The notes beneath the pieces were generated by a model. The model was not told where the DNA came from. It ran no database searches and worked only from the letters and a program-made list of their open reading frames with translations. Shown one piece after another: positions 15,496 to 29,648 of a stretch of DNA of 29,648 nucleotides (position 1 is the stretch's first letter; every line of letters begins with the position of its first letter). The DNA is from a virus. The DNA lies in IMG/VR virus record IMGVR_UViG_3300027900_000009, positions 1 through 29,648 of that record. The stretch is one strand, 5' to 3'. A program made the position numbers and the translations under genes.

Positions 15496-15717
15496 GTGAC
15501 TGAAGAGACGCAAGAAGGGCCTGCTAGTCCTAGCATCGAGGAACTTTTCCAGGTGGTCCAGGCGCATCACTCTGCACTGCAAGGGATCTCTACGCACCTT
15601 ATGCAGGTAGCTGGTAGGCTAGGGGAAGTGGAAGCTCTCCTTACCTTTCTCACAGGGGAAGCTGAGCAGCCTAAGGAGGAGGAGGAGGGAAGTAGTCCTC
15701 AGGCTGATGGACACTGA
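15496..15717 (+). CDS. Small acidic coiled-coil-like protein
   Basis: GTG 15496 directly follows the previous stop. The 73-residue product has a helical centre (SIEELFQVVQAHHSALQGIS, then HLMQVAGRLGEVEALLTFL) with heptad-like hydrophobics and an acidic tail (EAEQPKEEEEGSSPQ). It is probably an oligomeric helical adaptor; no family recognised. It overlaps the start of the exonuclease by 11 bases. Confidence 0.75.
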   Translation: MTEETQEGPASPSIEELFQVVQAHHSALQGISTHLMQVAGRLGEVEALLTFLTGEAEQPKEEEEGSSPQADGH

Positions 15718-16405
15718 GAAGGCCAAGATCCTTTTCTGGGACATAGAAACCCGGGGCCTCCAGGCGGACTATGGCTCCATCTTTTGTATCGGCTACAAGT
15801 GGCAAGGGGAAGAGAAGACCCATGTGGTCTCGATTCACGACGTCCCTGGGAAGCACCCCTTGGACGACAAGGAGCTGATCAAGTGGTTCGTGAAGGAGGT
15901 TTGGAATGAAGCTGACGTGGCAGTGGGCTGGTACAGCTCCGGGCATGATGAGCCCTTCCTTAGAACACGCTCAGCCATTCACAAGCTGGCAGCACCTAAG
16001 ACTGTCACCACTCTCGACCTGTGGGGTAAAGTTTGGAAGAGATTTAAGTTCTCCAAGAACTCCTTGGATAACGTCTCCAGGCACTTAGGCCTCACCAACA
16101 AGTGGTACAACCCACCCCAGGACTTTGAAAGGGTCCTCTGGGGTGACAAGGCTGCGATGAAGCGGATCGTGAAGCACTGCAGGGTGGACGTGGAGATCAC
16201 CGAGCAAGCCTACAAGCGCCTGGCACCTTTCATCCTCGCGCACCCGAGGGTAACTCACGACTCCTGGCGCTGCCGCACCTGTGGTAGCGAGAGCATCCAG
16301 CGAAGGGGCTGGAAGTACACCGCCCTTAAGGGTAAGACTATTCAGGTGTGGTGTAGGGCTTGCGGGGGCTGGGATACCAAGAGCCCGAAGGAGTTAGGAA
16401 AGTGA
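15707..16405 (+). CDS. DnaQ/RNase H-like 3'-5' exonuclease with C-terminal zinc ribbon
   Basis: Exo I is ILFWDIETRG (Asp12, Glu14). Asp81 in YSSGHDEPFL fits exo II, and HCRVDVEITEQAY (His157, Asp161) fits exo III. Together they form a DEDD active site as in the RNase_H_2/YprB-like exonucleases. The intervening TTLDLWGKVWKRFKFSKNSLD (given here as TTLDLWGKVWKRF and KFSKNSLD) matches the family's helical linker. After residue 185 a zinc ribbon is appended: CRTC (189-192) and CRAC (216-219). It would degrade single-stranded DNA or RNA with two metal ions; the ribbon probably adds nucleic-acid binding. It is separate from the polymerase-linked exonuclease downstream, so the phage encodes two such nucleases. 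232 residues. Confidence 0.9.
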   Translation: MDTEKAKILFWDIETRGLQADYGSIFCIGYKWQGEEKTHVVSIHDVPGKHPLDDKELIKWFVKEVWNEADVAVGWYSSGHDEPFLRTRSAIHKLAAPKTVTTLDLWGKVWKRFKFSKNSLDNVSRHLGLTNKWYNPPQDFERVLWGDKAAMKRIVKHCRVDVEITEQAYKRLAPFILAHPRVTHDSWRCRTCGSESIQRRGWKYTALKGKTIQVWCRACGGWDTKSPKELGK

Positions 16406-17322
16406 GCTTCCCCTGCACCAAGTGCGGCGCGTGCTGCGCGAAGGTCCAGGGAGAGCCTTGGAGTTCCACCCTTCCACTTAACCCTGATGGCTCTTGCCAG
16501 CATTACGACCCTAAGAGTAAGGAATGCAAGATCTACTCCACCCGGCCTGACATGTGCAGGATGGACTACTTCTGCCCCCCGCACTGCTGGGAGTGGCAAG
16601 AGGGCTACTGTGACAGGATTCACCAAGCCCTTTATGGGGTTTCACGAGAAAGGGGAGAAAATTGTACTCATGTAGTCGGAGGAAAAATGTCTAAAAAGGG
16701 CTCGGTACTTATTCTAGGGGCGGGGCGCTCTTCTTTCCAAAGGGTTGGCGTGTACTCCCCTGGAGAAACTCCACCTAGCAACTCCTTTTTTCTCAACTTT
16801 GAAGACATCTGGACTATAGACATAGACCCAGAGGCTAAACCTAAGATCACCTGGGATCTGGAGACCTCGGAGACTTTTGCTGGAAGAAAGAATCTCATCT
16901 GGCCTGTGCCAAATGGCTTCTTTGATGAGGTTCATGCGTATGAGCTTTTGGAACATCTCGGTCGGATGGGGGACTACGAGTTCTTCTTCGCCCTCTGGAG
17001 GAAGATCTGGGAGGTTCTCAAACCTGGGGGCGTGGTGTGTGCTACTACCCCTTGGTGGGAAAGTTCCTGGGCCTGGGGTGACCCTGGGCATAGGGTGGTC
17101 TACTCCCCAGCCTTGCTGATCTACCTTGACCAAGACAACTATTTAGCGCAGGTTGGCCACACCGCGATGACAGACTACCGGAGGTTTTTTCCTCCTCCTT
17201 ACTCCTTCAAGGTTAGAAACTCCTTGATGACTAGCATCAACTCTACCGTACCAGATCCCAGAAGCGCAGGATTTACCTTTGTGCTACAAAAGGTGGACTG
17301 GAAAAATGAAAGTAAAAACTAA
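16402..17322 (+). CDS. YkgJ-type CxxCxxCC protein fused to SAM methyltransferase, with internal start
   Basis: GTG 16402 overlaps the exonuclease stop (GTGA), giving 306 residues. Residues 1-90 are the YkgJ-like metal-chelating domain: FPCTKCGACC (Cys5, 8, 11, 12) plus DGSCQHYDPK, ECKIYSTRPDMCRMDYFC. From residue 96 a class I methyltransferase follows: VLILGAGRSSFQR (short motif I region), DIWTIDIDPEAKP (acidic strand), VHAYELLEHLGRMGDYEFFF and WEVLKPGGVVCATTPWW (motif VI/VII of Methyltransf_11). ATG at residue 96 (16687) has its own strong GGAGG ribosome site, so a free methyltransferase is probably also made. The YkgJ-like domain is of unknown biochemical role. The substrate is unknown. Confidence 0.87.
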   Translation: MSFPCTKCGACCAKVQGEPWSSTLPLNPDGSCQHYDPKSKECKIYSTRPDMCRMDYFCPPHCWEWQEGYCDRIHQALYGVSRERGENCTHVVGGKMSKKGSVLILGAGRSSFQRVGVYSPGETPPSNSFFLNFEDIWTIDIDPEAKPKITWDLETSETFAGRKNLIWPVPNGFFDEVHAYELLEHLGRMGDYEFFFALWRKIWEVLKPGGVVCATTPWWESSWAWGDPGHRVVYSPALLIYLDQDNYLAQVGHTAMTDYRRFFPPPYSFKVRNSLMTSINSTVPDPRSAGFTFVLQKVDWKNESKN

Positions 17323-18417: not shown

Positions 18418-19066
18418 GCCCTACATCTGCACTACCATGACCACCGAGGGGGGGAAGTACTTCGACCTTCTCAAGTCGGCTAGAAAGTGGGGTTGGAAGC
18501 TGCAAGCCCACTTTACCCCCGTGGAGGATGGGGATGAGGAACTCTTCTCCAAGGCCTACCATGCATACATAAAGAGGAAGCACCTGGAACTGAAGAAAAT
18601 ACTAGAAAAAGCCTACCTCCTTGAGGGGTTCAAACGCTTCTTCTACATGGATGGCTGGGATACTGTCCTTACTGGCCCTCCTGAGGAAATCCCTTGGCTC
18701 CACCCGCTCAACTTCTCCGCGGAAAAATTCTCCTACCCGGAAACGCGCTACATAGACCTCTTTCCCCCGGGGTCAATGCCTTCCCTGAATGCCGGAGTAA
18801 TCTGGGGCGAGATAGAAGCCTATCTTGCTCGGTGCCCAAGATACGAGATCTTCGATCAACTAGGCTGGATCAGGGAGTATATGAATAACCCTGAGGGGAT
18901 CTGGCTCGACACGGAGTCCCAGGTGGCAGTGAGTCTTTACGGCATAGCTGATCAAGACACCTGGGGCTACTCCGGTGGGCGCACTATTTATCGCCCTACA
19001 GGCACCAAGCCTCTAGTCCTACATGCTAATGGGAAGTGGTTTCTGCCTGCTTGGCTAACATGCTAA
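18404..19066 (+). CDS. Glycosyltransferase (PLOD/procollagen-type GT-A), second of a tandem pair
   Basis: ATG 18404 sits 4 bases after GGAGGAGG and overlaps the first paralogue by 14 bases, giving 220 residues. Shared blocks with the first copy are PYICTTMTTEGGKYFDLLKS, ARKWGWKLQAHF, RFFYMDGWDTVLTGPP (donor site), SLNAGVIWGEIEAYL and WLDTESQVAVSLYG. It has a longer Lys-rich linker (KRKHLELKKILEKAYLLEG) than its neighbour. Sequence divergence between the copies shows old duplication, so the two probably use different donors or act sequentially on one acceptor. No signal peptide. Ends inside the polymerase/UDG gene start by 7 bases. Confidence 0.87.
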   Translation: MPQAEPYICTTMTTEGGKYFDLLKSARKWGWKLQAHFTPVEDGDEELFSKAYHAYIKRKHLELKKILEKAYLLEGFKRFFYMDGWDTVLTGPPEEIPWLHPLNFSAEKFSYPETRYIDLFPPGSMPSLNAGVIWGEIEAYLARCPRYEIFDQLGWIREYMNNPEGIWLDTESQVAVSLYGIADQDTWGYSGGRTIYRPTGTKPLVLHANGKWFLPAWLTC

Positions 19067-20595
19067 GCAAGCCTAAGGCCTGCGAAGGATGTCCCTTGGA
19101 GAAGCTCGGGGCAGGCTTTGCTTTAACAGGAGGGAAAGGTGATACCACCTCAGTACTTGTTGTGGCAGAAGCACTTGGAGAAGAGGAGGCAAGGGCAGGA
19201 GAGCCCCTGGTTGGCCCAGCAGGGAGGACCTGGGACCGGCTGGTCAGCGGAACCCTTGACCCCTTACGCAACCACAACTTGTGTAGGGACGACTTCCTGC
19301 TGGCCAATGTTATCAGCTGCCAGCCTCCAGGGAATGTCATCACAGGAGCGCCCTATGAATCTGCAGCCATCGATCACTGCAGAGGATTCCTGGAAAAGAC
19401 AATACGAGAGTTCAGACCAAAATGCATCCTTACCCTGGGAAACACTCCCCTTAGGTGGTTCACCGGACAGTGGGGGATTGAAGGCCTTAGAGGTTACGTC
19501 TTTGAAACCCCTTGGGGACCTGTCGTACCTACCTATCATCCCTCCTACATCCAGCGAGGAAAGTGGAACTTGGCCAGGGTGGTTCAGCTGGATATTCTTA
19601 AAGCCCTTGAAGTGGCTAGGGGAGGTACTGCTTCTCTTCATGTGGAGAAAACCTATGAGTTATCTCCCGGAATCAGGGAGCTTGAGGTCTTCCACACGAG
19701 GTGGCTCAGGGCAGGATGCCCACCGCTAGCATTCGACATTGAAACCCCTCACTCCGAGGCCTCAGACAACGAGGACATGACCTTTGAGGAGGATGCCTCG
19801 TACCAGATCTTGATGATCTCCCTTTCCTTCGAGCCATTCAAGGCTATCAGCGTGCCTTGGATAGAACCCTTCAGCACTGTAGTGAAGGAGATCTTCAGGA
19901 CTCCTGGGGACTTCCTGGTGTGGAATGCCAAGTTCGACGTCCCCAGGCTTATGGCTTCCGGGGTCCACTTTAGGGGACAAGTAGTGGATGTTATGCTTGC
20001 CTGGCATTGGCTGGAGCCGGCTCTCCCCATGGGCTTGAAGTACGTGGCCACCTTTTTCTGCCCGGATATGGCTGCCTGGAAGCTAGAGATGCATAAGAAT
20101 TTCTCCTGGTACAACTGTGCAGACTCGGATGTGCTCCTAAGAACCTTCCTAGGCGTGAGAGAAAGATTAGAAGCCCAAGGTAGGTGGAATACCTTCATTA
20201 GGCACTTTGTAGAGTTCGGCAAGGTTCTTAACAAGATGTCCGAAAGGGGGGTGAGCGTAGACCATGACGCTAGAGCAGCAGCTAGAGAGCATTTCCAGGA
20301 GCGCTTCGTCGGGGTGGTTGAGAACAGCCAAAGGCTGGCTCCACCTGAGCTTGGGAATCTCAGTCCGAAGCGTGGGTATATCCGAACACCCACCGAGACT
20401 ACTGGTATGGTCCAGATCGAGGTCGAGCTTAACGAAAAGGAGCTGGCCAGAAGAAGAAAGGAGTCCGAGCGTGGGAGAGAAAAAGCTAAAAAAGAAGCCG
20501 AGAAGCAAGCGAGGAAAGCTCAGCGCGAAGAGGCTCGCAGAGTTAAGAAGCTGGGTAAGAAAGATGCAAAAAGGAAAAGAGTAGTCCATGAATAG
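19060..20595 (+). CDS. Family 4 uracil-DNA glycosylase fused to family A polymerase 3'-5' exonuclease (N-half of split PolA)
   Basis: ATG 19060 gives 511 residues; an in-frame GTG at 19036 is an alternative start. Residues 1-165 are a family 4 UDG: CEGCPL (Cys8, Cys11), AEALGEEEARAGEPLVGPAG (36-55), SCQPPGN (Cys87), Cys107 and PTYHPSYI. All four Fe-S cysteines and the active-site loops are kept. Residues 220-370 are the Pol I-type exonuclease: FDIETP (Asp226, Glu228), NAKFDVPRL (Asn289, Asp293), YNCADSD (Tyr351, Asp355), an intact DEDDy set. Residues ~385-420 are the start of the thumb (LNKMSERGVSVDHDARAAA). The chain then ends in a 50-residue Lys/Arg/Glu helix instead of the palm. UDG-PolA fusions are known in SPO1-like phages. 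Here the fusion is split. Confidence 0.93.
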   Translation: MLSKPKACEGCPLEKLGAGFALTGGKGDTTSVLVVAEALGEEEARAGEPLVGPAGRTWDRLVSGTLDPLRNHNLCRDDFLLANVISCQPPGNVITGAPYESAAIDHCRGFLEKTIREFRPKCILTLGNTPLRWFTGQWGIEGLRGYVFETPWGPVVPTYHPSYIQRGKWNLARVVQLDILKALEVARGGTASLHVEKTYELSPGIRELEVFHTRWLRAGCPPLAFDIETPHSEASDNEDMTFEEDASYQILMISLSFEPFKAISVPWIEPFSTVVKEIFRTPGDFLVWNAKFDVPRLMASGVHFRGQVVDVMLAWHWLEPALPMGLKYVATFFCPDMAAWKLEMHKNFSWYNCADSDVLLRTFLGVRERLEAQGRWNTFIRHFVEFGKVLNKMSERGVSVDHDARAAAREHFQERFVGVVENSQRLAPPELGNLSPKRGYIRTPTETTGMVQIEVELNEKELARRRKESERGREKAKKEAEKQARKAQREEARRVKKLGKKDAKRKRVVHE

Positions 20596-20767
20596 CATCT
20601 CTCACCCGCACCTTTGTGTTGAATGTGGAAAGGAGCACCTTTGTGACTACCCGGAATGCGATACCCTTCAAGGCTTCCAAAGGCTCTGCCAGAGGTGTAG
20701 CTATCTCTATGGCTGGAGGCAGAGCAAGGAGCGCAGGACCCAAGACGACTATAACGTCACGTTGTAA
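20588..20767 (+). CDS. Cys-rich small protein at the polymerase split
   Basis: ATG 20588 overlaps the UDG-exonuclease stop by 8 bases, 59 residues. CVEC (about residues 10-13), LCDYPECD and LCQRCSYLYGW (CQRC) give three or four Cys pairs, a double zinc-ribbon pattern. The tail (RRTQDDYNVTL) is polar. Position and Cys pattern suggest a zinc module that belongs to, or was cut out of, the polymerase thumb region. Alternatively it is an independent zinc-finger gene inserted there. The ribosome site (AAAAGGAAAAGAG, ~8 bases) is moderate. Confidence 0.7.
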   Translation: MNSISHPHLCVECGKEHLCDYPECDTLQGFQRLCQRCSYLYGWRQSKERRTQDDYNVTL

Positions 20768-20870
20768 GCACAGGCTAGACTCCACGTTCCCTAAGGAGAG
20801 TGTAGGCAGCTTCTTGGTAGGCAGGTGCTACTTCTGTGAGTGCATCGTGGCTGTAGAGCAGGTTGCGTGA
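20709..20870 (+). CDS. Second possible Cys-containing ORF coupled to the polymerase start
   Basis: The frame ending TGA 20868-20870 overlaps the polymerase GTG (GTGA), the same coupling used by real genes here. From ATG 20709 it encodes 53 residues including SRCKHRLD and GRCYFCECIVAVEQVA (Cys-His plus Cys-x2-Cys). Its first ~20 residues overlap the previous ORF in another frame. The ribosome site is weak. A +1 shift of ribosomes from the 20588 ORF would fuse the two into one Cys-rich protein. So it may be a separate protein, the tail of a frameshift product, or coincidental. Confidence 0.45.
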   Translation: MAGGRARSAGPKTTITSRCKHRLDSTFPKESVGSFLVGRCYFCECIVAVEQVA

Positions 20871-22024
20871 AGGAGCTAAGGTGGGCGAAGCGAGAGCCCT
20901 TCAATCCGGTCAGCTCCACCCAGGTGATGGCCTATCTCAAGCTGAAGGGATACAAGGTGCCTGTGGATCGGAAGACCCGGAAGCCCACATCCGGGGAGGA
21001 TGCGATAGTGGAGATCCTCAGGCACAATCAGGACCCGCTCCTAGAGCGAGTCCTGGAGGCCAGGCACCTAAAGAAGGCTTTAGGCTACCTTTTGGATACA
21101 GCTTTGGGCCAGGATGGAGCCTTTCATCCGATTTACACCTTCAGGCCGGAAACGGGCAGGCTCTCTTCTATCCGGCCAAACATGCAAAACGTCCCAAATG
21201 GCGGCGTAGACGAAGAGCTGGCTAGAGCCATAAGAAGTTGTATCGTACCCTCGCGCCCTGGGAGAGTCCTCCTAGAATGTGACTGGAAGGCCATGGAGGC
21301 AGTACTTACAGGTTTCTTCGCGGGGGACGACGAGTACATCGCGGCGAGCCAGAAGGACTCACACGCATGGTTTGCGGGCTACCTTCTCCTAGAGCAGGGA
21401 GTCATCAAGGAGGTACCAAGTCCTAAAAGTGAAGGCTTTATGGACTTCGCCTCTTGGGTCAAGAAGGACTTCAAGGAGGTAAGGAGCCTAGCTAAGAAGG
21501 TAAACCTGGCTACAGGCTACGGCATGAAGTGGCCCCTTCTGGCTGCCACCTTAAGGTGCAGTGCGGCAGAGGCAAAGCGCTACCTGGAAATCAAGGACAA
21601 GATGGCACCAAAGCTAAAGGCCTGGAAGGAGGCAACGTGGAGAGAGGCGCACGCAAAGGGATTCTTAGAAACTCCCTTTGGATATGTAAATTTCTTTTGG
21701 GATGTCTTGCGCGTGAAATCTGGAAAGGCTTCCCTAGGAAAGGAAGCCAACGCGGCTCTAGCCTTCAGGCCTCAAAGCTCCGGGGCAGCCATGCTAAGAG
21801 AGACAATGCTCCAACTAGACTCCCATGATGGAGAAGCTTTCGACTTCTTGGTGCCTATTCATGATGCGATTCTTGTGGAGACCTGGGAGCGGGATGTGGA
21901 GTATGCGAAGGGTGTGATCTGTAGTGCTATGGGTAGACCCTGGCCCGAGCTGGGGGGTTTGGCTATCCAGGCTGATGCCAAGGCTGGTTCAAGGTGGAGC
22001 GAAATGGAGGCTCTAGATGACTAA
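20867..22024 (+). CDS. polA: Family A DNA polymerase, palm/fingers part (C-half of split PolA)
   Basis: GTG 20867 gives 385 residues that begin right at the PFNPVSSTQ segment, where the palm follows the thumb in Pol I. Catalytic motifs are ETGRLSSIRPNMQNVP (95-110), motif A LLECDWKAME (Asp139), O-helix motif B RSLAKKVNLATGYGM (Arg206, Lys210, Leu214, Tyr218), FRPQSSGAAM and motif C VPIHDAIL (His332, Asp333). Both metal-binding Asp are kept. Leu214 replaces the Phe/Tyr found at E. coli position 762, and Ala334 replaces the Glu after the motif C Asp. Exonuclease, UDG and thumb start lie in the upstream gene. It replicates the phage genome, presumably as a complex with that partner. Confidence 0.95.
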   Translation: MKELRWAKREPFNPVSSTQVMAYLKLKGYKVPVDRKTRKPTSGEDAIVEILRHNQDPLLERVLEARHLKKALGYLLDTALGQDGAFHPIYTFRPETGRLSSIRPNMQNVPNGGVDEELARAIRSCIVPSRPGRVLLECDWKAMEAVLTGFFAGDDEYIAASQKDSHAWFAGYLLLEQGVIKEVPSPKSEGFMDFASWVKKDFKEVRSLAKKVNLATGYGMKWPLLAATLRCSAAEAKRYLEIKDKMAPKLKAWKEATWREAHAKGFLETPFGYVNFFWDVLRVKSGKASLGKEANAALAFRPQSSGAAMLRETMLQLDSHDGEAFDFLVPIHDAILVETWERDVEYAKGVICSAMGRPWPELGGLAIQADAKAGSRWSEMEALDD

Positions 22025-23005: not shown

Positions 23006-23491
23006 TTAAGGTCTCCTTGAGGGATCTCCGATCCCTCCTGATGCCCGCGTGCTGGGCCTTACCTGTTGCCTTCTAGCCTTTAAGGCTTCCACCCTAGCTA
23101 GAAGTTCCTTGTACCTTAGGTCTGGGTCGCCTGCGGCTCGTCTAGCATCCAGCTCAGAGGGCTTCCCTGCGTAAGCTAGCCAGCCTGCATCTTCCTGGGG
23201 GAGACCATAGGAGGAATATAGGTTTGAAAGCTTCTCCTCGTTGTAGGCAGAGTCTAGGTTCTTTCCCTCGTAAAGCTGGCCCACATGACGAAGCTCGTGA
23301 GCTAGCTCGAAGGGTTTGGCCTTAGGACTTACTCGTACCAGGGGCCTACCCTCGCTTCTCTGCCCGTAAGTGCCTGGCTCGAACTCGCCCTCCTCCTGCA
23401 CATAAGGATAACCCTCTGGGGTTCTCTTGGCTTGAGCAAGCTGGTACCCTGGCATGAGTCTTGCAAAGATCTGCTCCGGGGTCTCGGGCAT
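23006..23491 (-). CDS. HExxH metallopeptidase-like protein, probably virion-associated
   Basis: Residues 61-72 read FELAHELRHVGQ, with His65-Glu66-x-x-His69, the zinc site of a gluzincin-type peptidase. SELDARRAAGD around residue 112 places Glu113 as the third ligand with the family's ExxAR pattern. The N-terminal 40 residues (PETPEQIFARLMPGYQL, KRTPEGYPYVQEEGEFEPG) and a C-terminal coiled coil (RYKELLARVEALKARRQQV) flank it. Located one base from the giant virion protein's end (stop and start overlap), it is likely a maturation or ejected protease. Three HExxH proteins exist in this window. The peptide target is unknown. Confidence 0.82.
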   Translation of the reverse strand: MPETPEQIFARLMPGYQLAQAKRTPEGYPYVQEEGEFEPGTYGQRSEGRPLVRVSPKAKPFELAHELRHVGQLYEGKNLDSAYNEEKLSNLYSSYGLPQEDAGWLAYAGKPSELDARRAAGDPDLRYKELLARVEALKARRQQVRPSTRASGGIGDPSRRP

Positions 23492-26400
23492 TAGAAGGCT
23501 TCTCCTTTACCCTTGGGCTTCACCACCTCATCCACGAACTCGGGGAGGTTGGCATTCGAGGGCTTGAGCTTACCCATCTTGTACTTGGAAGTATATTCCT
23601 TCTTGAGTCTCTTGGCCCCGCCATACTTCTCGTTGAGGGTATGCACCCGGGAGTAGAGGGCCTTGGGCTTCTTACTCTCGGGCAAGGCTTGGTAAGCAGG
23701 TGAGGTGACAAACTCATTCAATAGCTGCGTCACCAGGGGCATGTACTCGTTCTCGAACTTCGCCACTTCCCCAGGGGAGAGACGGTAGTAGAGGTTCCGC
23801 CCGAAGGGATCCTTCCCAGGAAGCGTGACCCGGTGAGAAAGCCTAGGGCCACTCATCTTGAACTTAGACAGCTCCTTTTGTAGGGCCCGGTCCTTTTCCC
23901 TTAGTCCTGCTTGGCTACCTAGCCACTTCCCCTTGGCACCTTCGTCTGCGCTAACCCCGTTCCCCAGGAGCATGAGGGGGATGAGCCAGGCAAGCCTGGG
24001 ATTAGACTCAATGATGTCATTAGTATCACTGATACTCATGGGCTCAAGGAGTTCCTTGACGGTGGTGGTGGCAAAGCCGGTGGGGTCTGCATTGTAGTCC
24101 AAGGCTTCCCCTGAGCCGGTACGCTTCTCCAGGAAGCTAACCAGGTAGCCCACTCCAGGGCCCGCCTTGCTTCTAGCAAACCTAGCCACTGTGGCTAGGG
24201 GACTTTGCTCGGAGATCCTGCCACTTCCAAGCTCCTTCCTCTTCCCATAGAGGACTTGCTTCCCCCTGACGATGAACTGCTGTAAGCCACCCCAGCCGTC
24301 AAAGACTGCCCCTCCCATCCTGACCTTACCGAAGTCCGTAGAGAGCGCATCCCTTTCAATCTTGGGGTCTTCTCCCTGGAGCTTGGCGATAGTGTAAGCC
24401 AGGCCGGTGAGAGCCACGCCTCCCGCCATGGATCTAAGGGTCTGCATCCTGGCATAGCTCCTAGCATCCTTAGTAGCGTAGCGGGAGAAGCCAGTGAGCG
24501 CGTGCCCCAGCATCCTAACCCTGGAGGCATTCATGTTAGCGGAATAAAGGCCATAGTTAAGAACTTTGTCGAGGTGTGGGCTCCCAGTAACCTTGCCCCT
24601 AGACGCAGCGTTATTGATATGCTTGACCAGGTCTGGGAGGAAAGCCTCGAACTCTGCAGTGCTCCTTCCCACCTCGCCAAAACCCTTGACTCCATACTTG
24701 AAGGCATCCAGCATGGCCTTGTTTTGGTAGAAGTTGTAGGCGCGGTTGGAGGCATCCACAGGGAGGGTGATGACCTTTGAAAGGGTCTCCCCTAGGACCT
24801 TCTTGCTCCAGGTTTCCAGTGCTCCCTTCCCTAGAAAGCCCTCTGCTACGTCCTTCCCCCTTACAAATCTAAGGCCCTTCTCCGAGGCAAGCTGGTAGTA
24901 AGGGTCAGCTTCAAACATCTGCCGGAAGTGTGCGTCCGCCTTTTCGGAGAAGGCAGCACTCACCATGTCCTTCATGTTCTTAGCGAGGCCCCCTTCCTTA
25001 GGGGCCTTGAGCTGCGCCAACTGCACTATGTCTTGGAAGAGCTGATCTGTGGAAAGCTGCCAGGTGTTCCTGAAGACATTAGAGAAGTCGATAGCAGTCT
25101 TGATAGGTCGAGTGATGTTGATTCCCTCACCCACCTTGTCAATCCAGCTTTGCACCTTCAGGTCTGAAGGAGAAGGCTTGAAAGGGCTAGTCCCCAGGGT
25201 GGGGAGCTTCTTCACCTCTTCAAAAGAGGCCTTGGAGGCCTTCCAGGGGAGAGACCTGATCCGCTCCCTTTCCGCCTCCCTTGGGGTCTTGGAGGAGCCA
25301 GCCATCTTTAAGCCAAAGGGTAGGCCACCTAGCCTAACCCCCGCGAGGATCTCCGGGTCTGCTAGGTCTTGCCTGAGCTTATCCGTGATCTTGAGGACCT
25401 CAGGGTTGTGCGTGAGGATAGTCCTGGCCAGCTCGAAGGAGAACTCCCTAGGGCTATACTGCGCCCTCTTGACTCCATGCTCCGTAGAGTGGAACTGCTT
25501 GGAACTTTCCTTCTCAGGCACTAGGGCAGTCACATCACCGTAGGTCTTCTTCCCAATCTTGATTCCTTCCCGCAAAGGAAGGTTGCCTGCGATCTGCGCA
25601 AATGCATGAGGTCGGTTGGTGGTCTTAGTCTCCGCGTGACCAAGCTCATGGAGAAGGGCGTCCACCACGATATCTGCAAACTTCTGGGGGTGCTTTGTAA
25701 GGCTGCCCAGCTGCGCCAGGTCAATGTAGGCAGCGAGCTTTTTAGGCTCCCACCTAGTCCCTGCCTTGCCAGTCCACCAGCCACCGAGGCCCACGTATGC
25801 TTCCTTCAAAGCCGGGGCATTGGTAAGGTTAGCTGCAAGCTTGGCTAGCTTGCCCCCGGCCTCTTCGATCAGGGGTCGGGCCTTAGAGTAGGCCTTCCTC
25901 TCAGCCTCGACACTTTCCTTGGGAGTTAGCTCCGAGCCAGCCAGCTTCAGCTTCTGCCCCGCGGCACCCGTAGCCTGGGCCCTCCTGGAGGTCTCAAGCT
26001 TTCCAATAACTGTAGTGGCTTCTCCTTCAGGGATGTGCCCGGCCTTGACCCACTTTTCCACCTGCCTCTCAAGATCCAGGCGGGTGGAGGCTTCTACTTC
26101 CTTACCCTTGAGGAACTCCTGGGTGGCAGGGGAAATCTCTGGGGCCCTTACCTTAAGGGCCTCAAGCCTCTCCACCGCGGTGGGAGCCTTCTTAGCCCAA
26201 GGAACAGGATACTTGTTGAGGTCCCCCACGAGGATATCAGCTGGGGGAGAGGGGGTATACTTAGCCTTCTTCGCTCCGGTATACTTACCCATCCCCACAG
26301 TCGAGGTGGCGATCTTGGGCCCCTTCTCCTCCCTGGCAGCCAAGGCGGCTTCTGTCATCCCTGCAGAGCCCTTCTTCTCCCTCTCAAGGATCTGCTGGTA

Positions 26401-29400
26401 GGCTTCTGCCTCGTTCTCGATCTGCCCTGCGGTCTTCCTCCTAGAGGTGCCTCTCCCAAAGGCAGGGGGCTTGGCGTTCGGGTCCACATTGTAGGAGATC
26501 CTAGTGCTCTCAGCCTTAGAGCCCTTGGTTTGGAGGAGGGGGTAAGCTCCCTTTTCTCCCGGCAAGGTGGTCATGCGGAACCTGGACTCTGGGACCATGC
26601 CCTCGTAGACCTTAAGCTCTTCCTTTACCTTAAGGGCATTATCCAAGGTTTCCTGGGCGTGCTCTGCAGCCTTGACAGCTTGGGGAGTGCCTGTCTTGTT
26701 TGCATACTCGAAGACCTTGGGCGCAGACTCCTCCACCTTCCTGATGTGCTCCTGAAGTAGCTCCACCTCAGAGTAGAGCTGTCTCTTCCCACTGGCTCCA
26801 AGGGGGGCGATCAAGCTCTTGGCATAATCCTCCGCGAAGGGCTTCCTACCTAGGCGCGCCGCAACGCTCTTGAGCATAGGCCCAAGGCTTTGGATGACCT
26901 CCACCGGCCCGGGAATCTCTTCCGAGATCTTCTCGGACTTGGAGGCTGCCTCTTCTGCGGCCCTTTCAGTAACCCACCGCCGCGTGCGCTTCTTCACCTC
27001 GCTCATGGAGGGGAGAGGAACCACCCTACTTATCCTGGGGGAAGGTGCGTTGTCTCCCTTGAGTAGCTCTGTCTTCGCAGTGAGTTTGGCCAAGCCCTCA
27101 GGGGACCTGGCGGCTAGCTTGGAGTGGGTTTCCGGGGTGGTGTACCTGGGGCCAGTGACTGCGCCTTCTTCCCGCCCCAGCTCCTTCCTAAATTCCTCCA
27201 GGGAGCCTAGGAACTTGGTAAGCCTCACCCTGGCGTCAGGCACAGGCTTCCCGTCAGGGCCTACTCCTGCAGCCTTGAAAGCCCTCTCTACTCTTCCCTT
27301 CAGGTCCCAGCCAAAGCCCGCCTGCTGAATGTCACTCCACTTGATCCCTACGTTCTTCCCGGTGGCTGCCCTTCTCTTGAAGACATCTAGGATCTTCTCA
27401 ATAGCGTCTGCGCTGGCTTGAGTCCTGGAGGCGCTGCGCTGGAAGGGCCCAGGCTCCATGAGGTGCTCCCCAGCCTTGGGGGCCACCTCCGACTTGGTAC
27501 CGAGCTTAAGAAGCTTTCCAGCCACCCTGACAAAGCCCTTAGGGATCTGGGCAGGCCGCGCAGGGTACTTCTTAGTGGCCTCCTTGGCAGGCTTCCACTT
27601 CTTCTCCTGAAGGGGACCCGTGACCTTGCCTGCCTCCTCGTGAAGCTTTTCCCTCACAGGGCGGGGGGTGAAAGGCTCCTGCGCGCCAGCCATCTCCCTA
27701 GGGAGCTTCCTCTCCCCTTCTGGGAGGGAGGAGAAGCGATTAGGGAGCTTGGGGATCGGCTTGACATAACGCCTGGAAAGGTAGGCTTCCCTAGAAGCTG
27801 CAGCCAGCTCAGCCTGGCTTTCTTCGCTAAGGCGGAAGCCGCCCTTGGCTCTTTCTCTAGCTCTAGCAGCTTCCCTCTCGGCCTGGCTAGGGGCAATAGA
27901 GCCCCTAGAGCCTACCGTGGGAGCCTTGCCTGGGAAGCCAACCCTGGTGATCTTTCCAGAGATCCCCTTGGGGATGGACTTTAAGGCACTAGGCTCAGGG
28001 GTAGGTTTGGCAAGGCCTAGCCTACGCTTGATCTGCTCCTTACGCATCTTGAATCTAGATGCCAGGGAGCTTTCCTTAGGAAGAGGAATCTCTTCCTTCC
28101 TTGGCTTACCCGCGATGTCCAAGGCATCTGCCAGCTGACGAACGGACTCCTCTGGCATAGCTTCAAGCTCGGCCAGAATCTTGGCCTCTCTGGCTACAGC
28201 TTGCTCAGTCTTGGGGGCTTTAGGTCCGGCTCTGTACCCAGGCTCCTCTTGCACGAGGGCCTTGAAGACCTTCTCCACCAGGGCCTGGTCTCTGCTCTTC
28301 TTCTCCCTTTCCCTGGGGGAAAGCTCCGAGCCGGCCAACTTGAGCTTCCCCTTCTCAGGTGCGTGAAGCAGGCCAATAAGGTCCCCGATGTTTTGGGACT
28401 CATTGATAGTAGCCCTACGGGTGCCAGGAGAGAGGTCGAGCAGATTTCCCTTGACATCTCCCCAAAGCTTGATAGCGTCATCCATGGCCCTGGCAGCTGC
28501 GCCTAGATTGGTGGTTCTAAGTGCTCTGGCCTGCTGCACCTTGGCTCGGTATTGCGAGGCGAGGTCCTCGGCGGTCCTGGCAGAATCTGCACTCTTTTGA
28601 AGGGTGACCCCCAGGCGCTCCTGGTTCCAGAGCTTCCTAGCTTCCTTAGCCGAGAGTTGCGGCTGAGTCGTTCTGAGCTTGGAGAGTTCGGGGGAAGTCT
28701 CCTGGGATCTAACTACAGTCTGAAGCGCCCTCTGATCTCCGGCTTCTGCCTTCTTCCATCTAAGAGAGGTGCCACTAAGTCTTGGAGCTGCCTTACGAAT
28801 GTAGGCAACAGCCTCAAGGAGTTCCTTCGCCCCTGTGGAAAGCTCCCCCTGGGCATTCCGCTCCCTAGCAAGGGTCTTTGCTACATTAGGGAAGTAGCTC
28901 CTGAGTTGGCCATAAGTAAAGCCTCTAGCTTCGAGAGCTTCCATTCTTCCAGGCTGGGCCCCACTCTTAAGCTCCGTAGCTAGCTGCTTGATCATCTTGG
29001 AGGTGGGAGAATTCAGGCCTATGACGAAGTTGTCTCCAGTCCACCTTCCAGAGGAAGGCCCCGACTTTACTGTCGAAATCCACTCATCAATTGGATTGAT
29101 GGCCTTGGGTACAGGTGGAGGCTTCAAGGCTTCAGGAAGAGGGGCTTCCACTCTCCGGTTAGTTATGGCTGCCATGGCAGGCCTGACAGAGGAAGTGAAC
29201 ATCCCCAGGAGCTTCTCCCCCATGCTCTGCTTAGGCCCGGCTGGAGGCGGTAGGCCTGCCATCTTCTGCTCTACCTGGGGAGCCGCGGCCTTCCTCTCAG
29301 CGATGAGGGCCTTTACGAAGTCCGGGTGGACCTGAGCCTTTGCGGCCTGTCTCCTAAGGGCATCAGCCTGCCTGGGGGTAAGAGGACCTCCAGCCGCGGT

Positions 29401-29648
29401 TAGCCTGTGCGGGGGAAGGTTCATCACCTCTGGCTGTGGAGCCATCTGATCCGGGGGGATGAAGTCTGCCTCAAAACCCTTTAGCTCTGTGGGGGTAGGT
29501 GGCTTCATGCCCAAGCCTTCTGCTAGCTCCATACTCTCAGGGGAGTAAGTCCCTGCAAGAATAGAAGCCCTAGTGGGGGCTTGGAGCGAAAGGGCCCCAG
29601 CTTCAACCGAGCCTTGGAGACTCCTGGCCTGGAGTGCATGCTCAGGGC
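23491..29648 (-). CDS. Giant polyvalent virion/ejection protein, N-terminus beyond the window
   Basis: The frame is open from the right edge to the stop at 23491-23493. The first visible ATG (29532) gives 2013 residues, but ~39 more codons upstream are also protein-like, so the gene starts outside. Composition is rich in Lys, Glu, Ala, Pro with long coiled-coil and disordered stretches, as in phage large polyvalent proteins. Those are packaged and ejected with DNA. Counting from that ATG, an HExxH domain is at 1295-1299 (DALLHELGHAETKTT). Residues 1520-1720 form a helical block ending in a membrane-like stretch (SMAGGVALTGLAYTIA). A second hydrophobic stretch (WLIPLMLLGNGV) lies near 1850. 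The C-terminal ~350 residues resemble LPD-type associated domains from memory. A KLKLAGSEL linker repeats three times. Confidence 0.95.
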   Translation of the reverse strand, partial: PEHALQARSLQGSVEAGALSLQAPTRASILAGTYSPESMELAEGLGMKPPTPTELKGFEADFIPPDQMAPQPEVMNLPPHRLTAAGGPLTPRQADALRRQAAKAQVHPDFVKALIAERKAAAPQVEQKMAGLPPPAGPKQSMGEKLLGMFTSSVRPAMAAITNRRVEAPLPEALKPPPVPKAINPIDEWISTVKSGPSSGRWTGDNFVIGLNSPTSKMIKQLATELKSGAQPGRMEALEARGFTYGQLRSYFPNVAKTLARERNAQGELSTGAKELLEAVAYIRKAAPRLSGTSLRWKKAEAGDQRALQTVVRSQETSPELSKLRTTQPQLSAKEARKLWNQERLGVTLQKSADSARTAEDLASQYRAKVQQARALRTTNLGAAARAMDDAIKLWGDVKGNLLDLSPGTRRATINESQNIGDLIGLLHAPEKGKLKLAGSELSPREREKKSRDQALVEKVFKALVQEEPGYRAGPKAPKTEQAVAREAKILAELEAMPEESVRQLADALDIAGKPRKEEIPLPKESSLASRFKMRKEQIKRRLGLAKPTPEPSALKSIPKGISGKITRVGFPGKAPTVGSRGSIAPSQAEREAARARERAKGGFRLSEESQAELAAASREAYLSRRYVKPIPKLPNRFSSLPEGERKLPREMAGAQEPFTPRPVREKLHEEAGKVTGPLQEKKWKPAKEATKKYPARPAQIPKGFVRVAGKLLKLGTKSEVAPKAGEHLMEPGPFQRSASRTQASADAIEKILDVFKRRAATGKNVGIKWSDIQQAGFGWDLKGRVERAFKAAGVGPDGKPVPDARVRLTKFLGSLEEFRKELGREEGAVTGPRYTTPETHSKLAARSPEGLAKLTAKTELLKGDNAPSPRISRVVPLPSMSEVKKRTRRWVTERAAEEAASKSEKISEEIPGPVEVIQSLGPMLKSVAARLGRKPFAEDYAKSLIAPLGASGKRQLYSEVELLQEHIRKVEESAPKVFEYANKTGTPQAVKAAEHAQETLDNALKVKEELKVYEGMVPESRFRMTTLPGEKGAYPLLQTKGSKAESTRISYNVDPNAKPPAFGRGTSRRKTAGQIENEAEAYQQILEREKKGSAGMTEAALAAREEKGPKIATSTVGMGKYTGAKKAKYTPSPPADILVGDLNKYPVPWAKKAPTAVERLEALKVRAPEISPATQEFLKGKEVEASTRLDLERQVEKWVKAGHIPEGEATTVIGKLETSRRAQATGAAGQKLKLAGSELTPKESVEAERKAYSKARPLIEEAGGKLAKLAANLTNAPALKEAYVGLGGWWTGKAGTRWEPKKLAAYIDLAQLGSLTKHPQKFADIVVDALLHELGHAETKTTNRPHAFAQIAGNLPLREGIKIGKKTYGDVTALVPEKESSKQFHSTEHGVKRAQYSPREFSFELARTILTHNPEVLKITDKLRQDLADPEILAGVRLGGLPFGLKMAGSSKTPREAERERIRSLPWKASKASFEEVKKLPTLGTSPFKPSPSDLKVQSWIDKVGEGINITRPIKTAIDFSNVFRNTWQLSTDQLFQDIVQLAQLKAPKEGGLAKNMKDMVSAAFSEKADAHFRQMFEADPYYQLASEKGLRFVRGKDVAEGFLGKGALETWSKKVLGETLSKVITLPVDASNRAYNFYQNKAMLDAFKYGVKGFGEVGRSTAEFEAFLPDLVKHINNAASRGKVTGSPHLDKVLNYGLYSANMNASRVRMLGHALTGFSRYATKDARSYARMQTLRSMAGGVALTGLAYTIAKLQGEDPKIERDALSTDFGKVRMGGAVFDGWGGLQQFIVRGKQVLYGKRKELGSGRISEQSPLATVARFARSKAGPGVGYLVSFLEKRTGSGEALDYNADPTGFATTTVKELLEPMSISDTNDIIESNPRLAWLIPLMLLGNGVSADEGAKGKWLGSQAGLREKDRALQKELSKFKMSGPRLSHRVTLPGKDPFGRNLYYRLSPGEVAKFENEYMPLVTQLLNEFVTSPAYQALPESKKPKALYSRVHTLNEKYGGAKRLKKEYTSKYKMGKLKPSNANLPEFVDEVVKPKGKGEAF
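25258..25314 (-). repeat. Linker repeat 3 (diverged) in the giant protein
   Basis: Encodes GLKMAGSSKTPREAERERI at residues 1407-1425. It is a diverged copy of the same linker, lying directly C-terminal of the HExxH domain. Confidence 0.7.
25915..25953 (-). repeat. Linker repeat 2 in the giant protein
   Basis: Encodes KLKLAGSELTPKE at residues 1194-1206, 11 of 13 positions identical with repeat 1. It lies directly N-terminal of the HExxH domain. Confidence 0.8.
28309..28347 (-). repeat. Linker repeat 1 in the giant protein
   Basis: Encodes KLKLAGSELSPRE at residues 396-408 (numbered from the first visible ATG). It is followed by charged residues REKKSRDQAL. Confidence 0.8.

Follow-up and report, generated by a model that had tools for sequence, protein, structure and literature searches.

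Can a replicative DNA polymerase be assembled from two chains that meet inside its thumb, and what is the small cysteine-rich protein encoded where they meet? The question is raised by a viral sequence of 29,648 bases (IMG/VR record IMGVR_UViG_3300027900_000009), here called the window, by which we mean this whole stretch. Its family A polymerase, of the type that carries a uracil-DNA glycosylase (UDG) and a 3′-5′ exonuclease in front of the polymerase domain (PolA), is encoded as two genes, 19060-20595 (subunit 1) and 20867-22024 (subunit 2), with an open reading frame (ORF) for 59 residues including six cysteines between them (20588-20767). We favour, at a probability of roughly 0.55, a two-chain polymerase split within a thumb insert, the junction zinc protein most likely being the detached or replaced zinc module of that insert.

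The same split in five genomes

A preliminary description, made from the letters of the window alone, had placed the UDG, the exonuclease and the start of the thumb in one gene and the palm and fingers in another. This observation was confirmed, and the arrangement recurs in four genomes from other samples, L002, L023, L024 and L129, giving five independent split genomes with the window. In L002 (IMG/VR 3300044712_000313) the gene order is that of the window; the UDG-exonuclease proteins of the two are 62% identical, the polymerase proteins 69% and the products of the zinc ORF 47%. The split point in the alignment is identical in L023, L024 and L129, and all four genomes, L002 included, hold about 0.2-0.5 kb of extra sequence. 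In a quick maximum-likelihood tree the five form one clade with an SH-like approximate likelihood ratio test (SH-aLRT) value of 100. Between the window and L002, the ratio of nonsynonymous to synonymous differences (pN/pS), to be read with the caveat that synonymous sites are near saturation, is 0.30 for the core of subunit 1, 0.27 for the polymerase and 0.50 for the zinc ORF. Because of the conservation in L002 and these ratios, we conclude that both the split and the 59-residue zinc ORF are real.

A sequencing or assembly error that broke a continuous gene is conceivable for a single metagenome contig, but it is ruled out by the layout shared with L002, at 62-69% identity, and by the split point shared with the other three genomes. 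Nor does any indel that would restore one frame, an outcome that the preliminary description had envisaged, survive as an explanation of five independent genomes; we give an error a negligible probability.

Position of the cut within the thumb

Scans with growing alignments collected about 100 distinct relatives from IMG/VR, which constitute one UDG-exonuclease-PolA family; a scan of genome contigs for relatives found none. In most members the UDG, exonuclease and polymerase lie in one chain of 800-1100 residues. On a profile of 896 positions built from 12 continuous members, subunit 1 aligns to positions 12-482 and subunit 2 to 492-896, while positions ~458-491 are poorly covered, only the charged tail of subunit 1 lying there. 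From this consecutive coverage we conclude that each window gene encodes one part of what was a single protein in the ancestor. The earlier claim that one polymerase is broken inside its thumb is upheld, and the halves cannot be taken for unrelated genes, being one protein in most relatives.

The profile aligns to the E. coli Klenow fragment in two blocks, one reaching chain residue 247 and the other starting from residue 252 (EEFNLSS). The 66 profile positions that separate these blocks are an insert that follows the first thumb helix and precedes EEFNLSS. The corresponding columns of T7 gp5 are approximately residues 262-333, the match being weak (E 1.1e-5 for that domain). The thioredoxin-binding domain of gp5 has been placed at that thumb region, and its transfer to E. 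coli Pol I or Taq is reported to increase their processivity (PMC5984650). Taken together, the profile, Klenow and T7 alignments and the published location of the thioredoxin-binding domain indicate that the family carries an insert at the thumb position of that T7 domain and that the window gene is cut within it.

Since the break lies inside the thumb, both halves hold complementary thumb parts, which would be of little use alone and have been kept in five genomes. This bears on the possibility that the two proteins act apart, subunit 1 as a repair UDG/exonuclease and subunit 2 as a polymerase with a reduced thumb and no proofreading. Such a division of labour could draw on the fact that stand-alone exonuclease genes occur in phages and that the window has another exonuclease of this kind at 15707-16405 (phrog_403, 1.1e-36). 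However, the genes still adjoin with overlapping ends, and the pN/pS values of the two halves also speak against separate action, which we consider improbable. Judged from sequence, the two chains very probably assemble.

A further alternative is that intron splicing, an intein pair or programmed frameshifting yields one continuous chain after all. The family A polymerase genes of relatives do contain intein-like insertions, and L023 and L129 show a change of coding signal, close to a polypurine run, from subunit 1 to the -1 frame, but this shift concerns the zinc module only and does not join subunit 2. Moreover, genomes differ in how the frames of the two subunits and the zinc ORF relate to one another, for which reason a programmed frameshift joining the halves was rejected, and in the window the zinc ORF has its own ATG, the upstream ORF in its frame stopping just before it. 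No Rfam intron was matched in the window and 22 relatives, and no intein family in the window proteins, so a group I or II intron at the break and intein halves at the junction were both rejected. Restoration of one chain is therefore very improbable.

Zinc modules at the junction

The zinc ORF overlaps the end of subunit 1 by 8 nucleotides (ATGAATAG) and gave no family match in Pfam, PHROG or NCBIfam. The preliminary description spoke of one or two Cys-rich ORFs. The first stands, with 6/6 cysteines retained in L002 and the pN/pS given above. The second, ORF2, is doubtful: it would encode ~53 residues with four cysteines, its coding score is near zero, its pN/pS is 0.67 on a poor alignment, and none of its cysteines is conserved in L002, where the ORF at the same place has a good coding score. 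On account of the weak coding signal and unconserved cysteines we rejected ORF2 as the fourth subunit that had been suggested.

Many continuous relatives carry a zinc-type motif at the same place. Of 98 continuous linkers, 57 have CxxC in the insert (40 of the 69 remaining after thinning for the tree), compared with 11 of 1890 equal-length windows elsewhere in the same proteins (0.6%). The form C-x(1-2)-C...H...C is found in 35 of these 69 tree rows. Inserts without CxxC mostly comprise just the preceding hairpin (GYKRxPKDTTGLV...), and presence or absence of the zinc insert changes six times on the tree. The continuous homologues with a thumb zinc insert that the preliminary description had proposed to look for thus exist in dozens.

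Every one of the five split-clade members has coding sequence for a Cys-pair module at its junction. It is a separate ORF coupled to subunit 1 in the window and L002, lies in frame within the tail of subunit 1 in L024 (CFTCGDYEKGLVACVCAHTKARPKSFKCEC), and in L023 and L129 occupies the -1 frame over that tail, the codon-usage signal passing to the zinc frame. In the latter two genomes (L023:6560-6763, L129:1300-1489) a polypurine run immediately precedes the CxxC module, and it is there that the coding signal enters the -1 frame. The zinc frame has no good start codon at the switch and a programmed frameshift is possible there; no convincing slippery site was found at this position. Small ORFs with at least two CxxC motifs have a background density of 0.033 per kb in the fetched loci, and thus ~0.01 would be expected in the 0.27-kb gap of the window. 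Measured against this background, modules in 5/5 members favour a kept function rather than chance.

Several observations weigh against the zinc protein as a detached or replaced module. The window zinc ORF and the knuckle of the relatives are matched by hhalign with a probability of 5% over 15 columns. Within the split clade the zinc modules are clearly homologous only in the window/L002 pair; those of L023 and L129 are weakly homologous (E 0.002 in a nine-sequence set), and E-values in Cys-rich stretches of 15-60 residues are unreliable. AlphaFold models built from two-sequence alignments were unusable (pLDDT, the predicted local distance difference test, of 33 and 43). Finally, unrelated genes occupy the gaps of other split members, among them genes for Dam, D12 methylase, DUF1937 and EndoVII proteins, and the number and kind of gap ORFs vary even within the split clade. 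These last two points would fit a polymerase that is indeed two-chain, with the zinc ORF and ORF2 as passenger genes at a newly formed gene boundary. But passengers would leave the modules at all five junctions and the zinc at the same place in continuous relatives to coincidence, and we regard this account as possible, though not the probable one.

Repeated fission in the family

Nine members are split at the thumb insert, in three separate groups (three changes are forced by well-supported branches). The first is the clade of the window, L002, L129, L023 and L024. The second consists of L080 (IMG/VR 3300043707_000036) and L185 (3300050821_004792), and the third of L173 and L186, which have no zinc and whose genes abut or overlap.

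In the second group the cut runs through the zinc ribbon itself. The continuous sister L072 reads NVTCSCGSARGETSSGKCRKCKGTG here, whereas in L185 subunit 1 ends VKCDCQSKEAVNEQA and subunit 2 starts MPKCRRCKDTG, and in L080 subunit 1 ends VECPLCTKEVEV and subunit 2 starts, from a TTG codon, TCKKCGDTG. Each chain thus has one Cys pair at the break (CPLC and CKKC in L080, CDC and CRRC in L185, for subunits 1 and 2, respectively), which suggests that one zinc ion may join the subunits by two cysteines from each chain. The earlier idea that zinc holds the pieces together is partly supported: in L080 and L185 each half holds two cysteines of an L072-type ribbon, but the zinc module of the window has a small ORF to itself and may or may not join the two chains. 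Several small ORFs lie in the gaps of these genomes (L080:6200-7200, L185:2500-3400), the first of them apparently alike in both.

Other members are split elsewhere: at the end of the exonuclease (L070, L083, L113, L114, L146 and L011), within the exonuclease so that motifs II and III are separated (L041, L042, L044, L046 and L049), or before motif A (L025, L064, L066, L078 and L164). The UDG-exonuclease-PolA gene readily undergoes fission, and the thumb insert is just one of several sites where a break is tolerated.

The gaps at these other positions differ in content. Between the UDG-exonuclease and polymerase genes lie a Dam methylase in L070 (6110-6990) and a D12 class adenine methylase in L113 (6161-6892). 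Among the splits inside the exonuclease L041 has no gap gene and others hold unrelated genes such as DUF1937, found in L044 and L046. At the split just before motif A, L025 carries an EndoVII-type homing endonuclease ORF (L025:4201-4662), and no Rfam intron was found there. Intein-like insertions in the polymerase, often near motif A, are present in L027, L028, the polymerase ORFs of L129 and L185, and others; that of L028 gives weak Hint, LAGLIDADG and intein-splicing matches.

Features of the two subunits

Table 1. Coordinates of the polymerase genes, their domains and the ORFs between them in the window
Feature	Position	Strand	Remarks
Subunit 1: family-4-type UDG, DEDDy exonuclease, first thumb helix, basic tail	19060-20595	+	Pfam UDG 1.6e-18; phrog_17 5.1e-22
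UDG domain	19060-19614	+	C8, C11, C87, C107 (Fe-S type ligands) and H160 invariant
DEDDy 3′-5′ exonuclease	19717-20193	+	Klenow exonuclease alignment; D226, E228, D293, Y351, D355
First thumb helix	20194-20355	+	Aligns to Klenow as far as chain residue 247
Thumb insert start, SPKRGYIRTPTETTGMVQIEVELNEK	20356-20433	+	Also present in continuous relatives, ahead of the zinc knuckle
K/R/E-rich C-terminal tail, probably helical	20434-20592	+	Sequence kept only in L002
59-residue zinc-type ORF, HxHxCxxCG..C....C...C..C	20588-20767	+	Six Cys; conserved in L002
ORF2, 53 residues from ATG 20709, other frame, overlaps zinc ORF; uncertain gene	20709-20870	+	Weak coding signal, not conserved
Subunit 2: remaining thumb, palm, fingers; family A DNA polymerase, 385 residues	20867-22024	+	Pfam DNA_pol_A (PF00476) 3.1e-37; phrog_17 2.1e-49
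Motif A catalytic Asp, D139	21281-21283	+	Invariant
Motif B Lys, K210	21494-21496	+	Invariant
Motif C His-Asp, H332 and D333	21860-21865	+	Invariant

Read from ATG 19060, subunit 1 has 511 residues (GTG 19036 is an alternative start). The best NCBIfam match of its UDG is TIGR00758 (UDG family 4; 1.4e-20), at 73.7 bits against a curated cut-off of 125.3 bits. The five exonuclease residues listed in Table 1 are invariant among eight relatives, as befits a DEDDy enzyme. The last 57 residues hold 24 Lys or Arg and 12 Asp or Glu, and this tail is the sole stretch above pLDDT 70 in the AlphaFold model that includes it. For subunit 2, GTG 20867 is the likelier start, its GTGA overlapping the stop of ORF2, with GTG 20840 as alternative; numbered from 20867, PFNPVSSTQ starts at residue 11. 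Residues D139, E144, K210, H332 and D333 are invariant, providing motifs A, B and C of a family A palm and fingers, but thumb, palm and fingers do not lie in one chain, the first thumb helix being encoded in the other gene. The catalytic residues of all three activities are intact and invariant.

Elsewhere in the window, the stand-alone exonuclease is followed at 16360-17322 by a gene whose product combines a CxxCxxCC domain with a methyltransferase-like part, and an ORF of 2013 residues at 23491-29532 on the minus strand has no NCBIfam or PHROG match.

Comparison with known systems

The window polymerase has the domain order UDG-exonuclease-polymerase of phage UDG-PolA fusions (PHROG phrog_17) such as that of Caudoviricetes vir526 (BK063670), and its two halves match consecutive parts of phrog_17. 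The vir526 protein is a single chain of 859 residues, whereas the window has two chains with a zinc-type ORF between them. The insert of T7 gp5 also has basic residues and occupies the corresponding thumb site, flanked by the first thumb helix and the FNP/S segment. This T7 insert is the binding site of host thioredoxin, and gp5, unlike the window polymerase, is unsplit. To our knowledge, the T7 insert has no zinc motif.

Adjacent UDG-exonuclease and polymerase genes are also found in Manatee Spring phage ctLwi270 (MW202554) and Rhizobium phage RHph_TM39 (MN988559), but the former is split before the thumb and the latter apparently after it, while the window is split in the thumb insert. Both are distant (~30% in the UDG-exonuclease part of MW202554). 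MW202554 contains an unannotated NrdR-like zinc ribbon ORF (L011:2878-3138 in MW202554.1; PF22811, 1.8e-14) that overlaps the UDG-exonuclease gene at its end and the polymerase gene at its start. L080 and L185 are split independently at the thumb insert used by the window; they differ from it in having the break within the zinc ribbon.

A two-chain replicative polymerase is likewise encoded by the split gene 43 of Aeromonas phages 25 and 44RR, and the gp43A and gp43B proteins (PolB) of phage 25 co-purify and are active (PMC2988022). These are family B enzymes rather than family A, with no UDG and, as far as is known to us, no zinc module; they are a precedent for assembly of a polymerase from two chains. 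In the open-licence literature we found no paper on a zinc insert or a thumb split, most subscription journals lying outside this scope.

A proposed model of the assembled polymerase

Collectively, these results lead us to propose that the locus provides an uncultivated tailed phage with its replicative DNA polymerase, whose ancestors would have had UDG, exonuclease and PolA in a single chain. This chain would have been cut inside the thumb surface insert, where the T7 polymerase bears its thioredoxin-binding domain, and the overlapping neighbour genes would supply both chains together. The first thumb helix of subunit 1 is predicted to pack on the thumb helices of subunit 2, so that the thumb would be complete only in the complex, and this packing would also position the exonuclease. 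The 59-residue zinc protein would most likely be the detached or replaced zinc module of the insert; from its sequence, we give it about even chances of belonging to the complex. Together with the basic tail of subunit 1 it may sit at the tip of the thumb, in the place of the T7 processivity module, and could hold either the DNA or the partner subunit; a role in processivity is conceivable, if somewhat on the doubtful side. More tentative is the full picture of a three-polypeptide replicase with its thumb formed across two chains and a zinc thumb-tip module acting in trans, together with L080 and L185 halves joined by one zinc through four cysteines from both chains.

It is at the thumb insert of family A polymerases that T7 recruits its processivity factor, and here a large phage family has zinc modules at this insert and has been cut there several times. 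Its members are natural test cases for the assembly of a thumb from two chains and for the gain of processivity modules. The split ribbons of L080 and L185 would be natural zinc-dependent split polymerases, usable as switchable enzymes.

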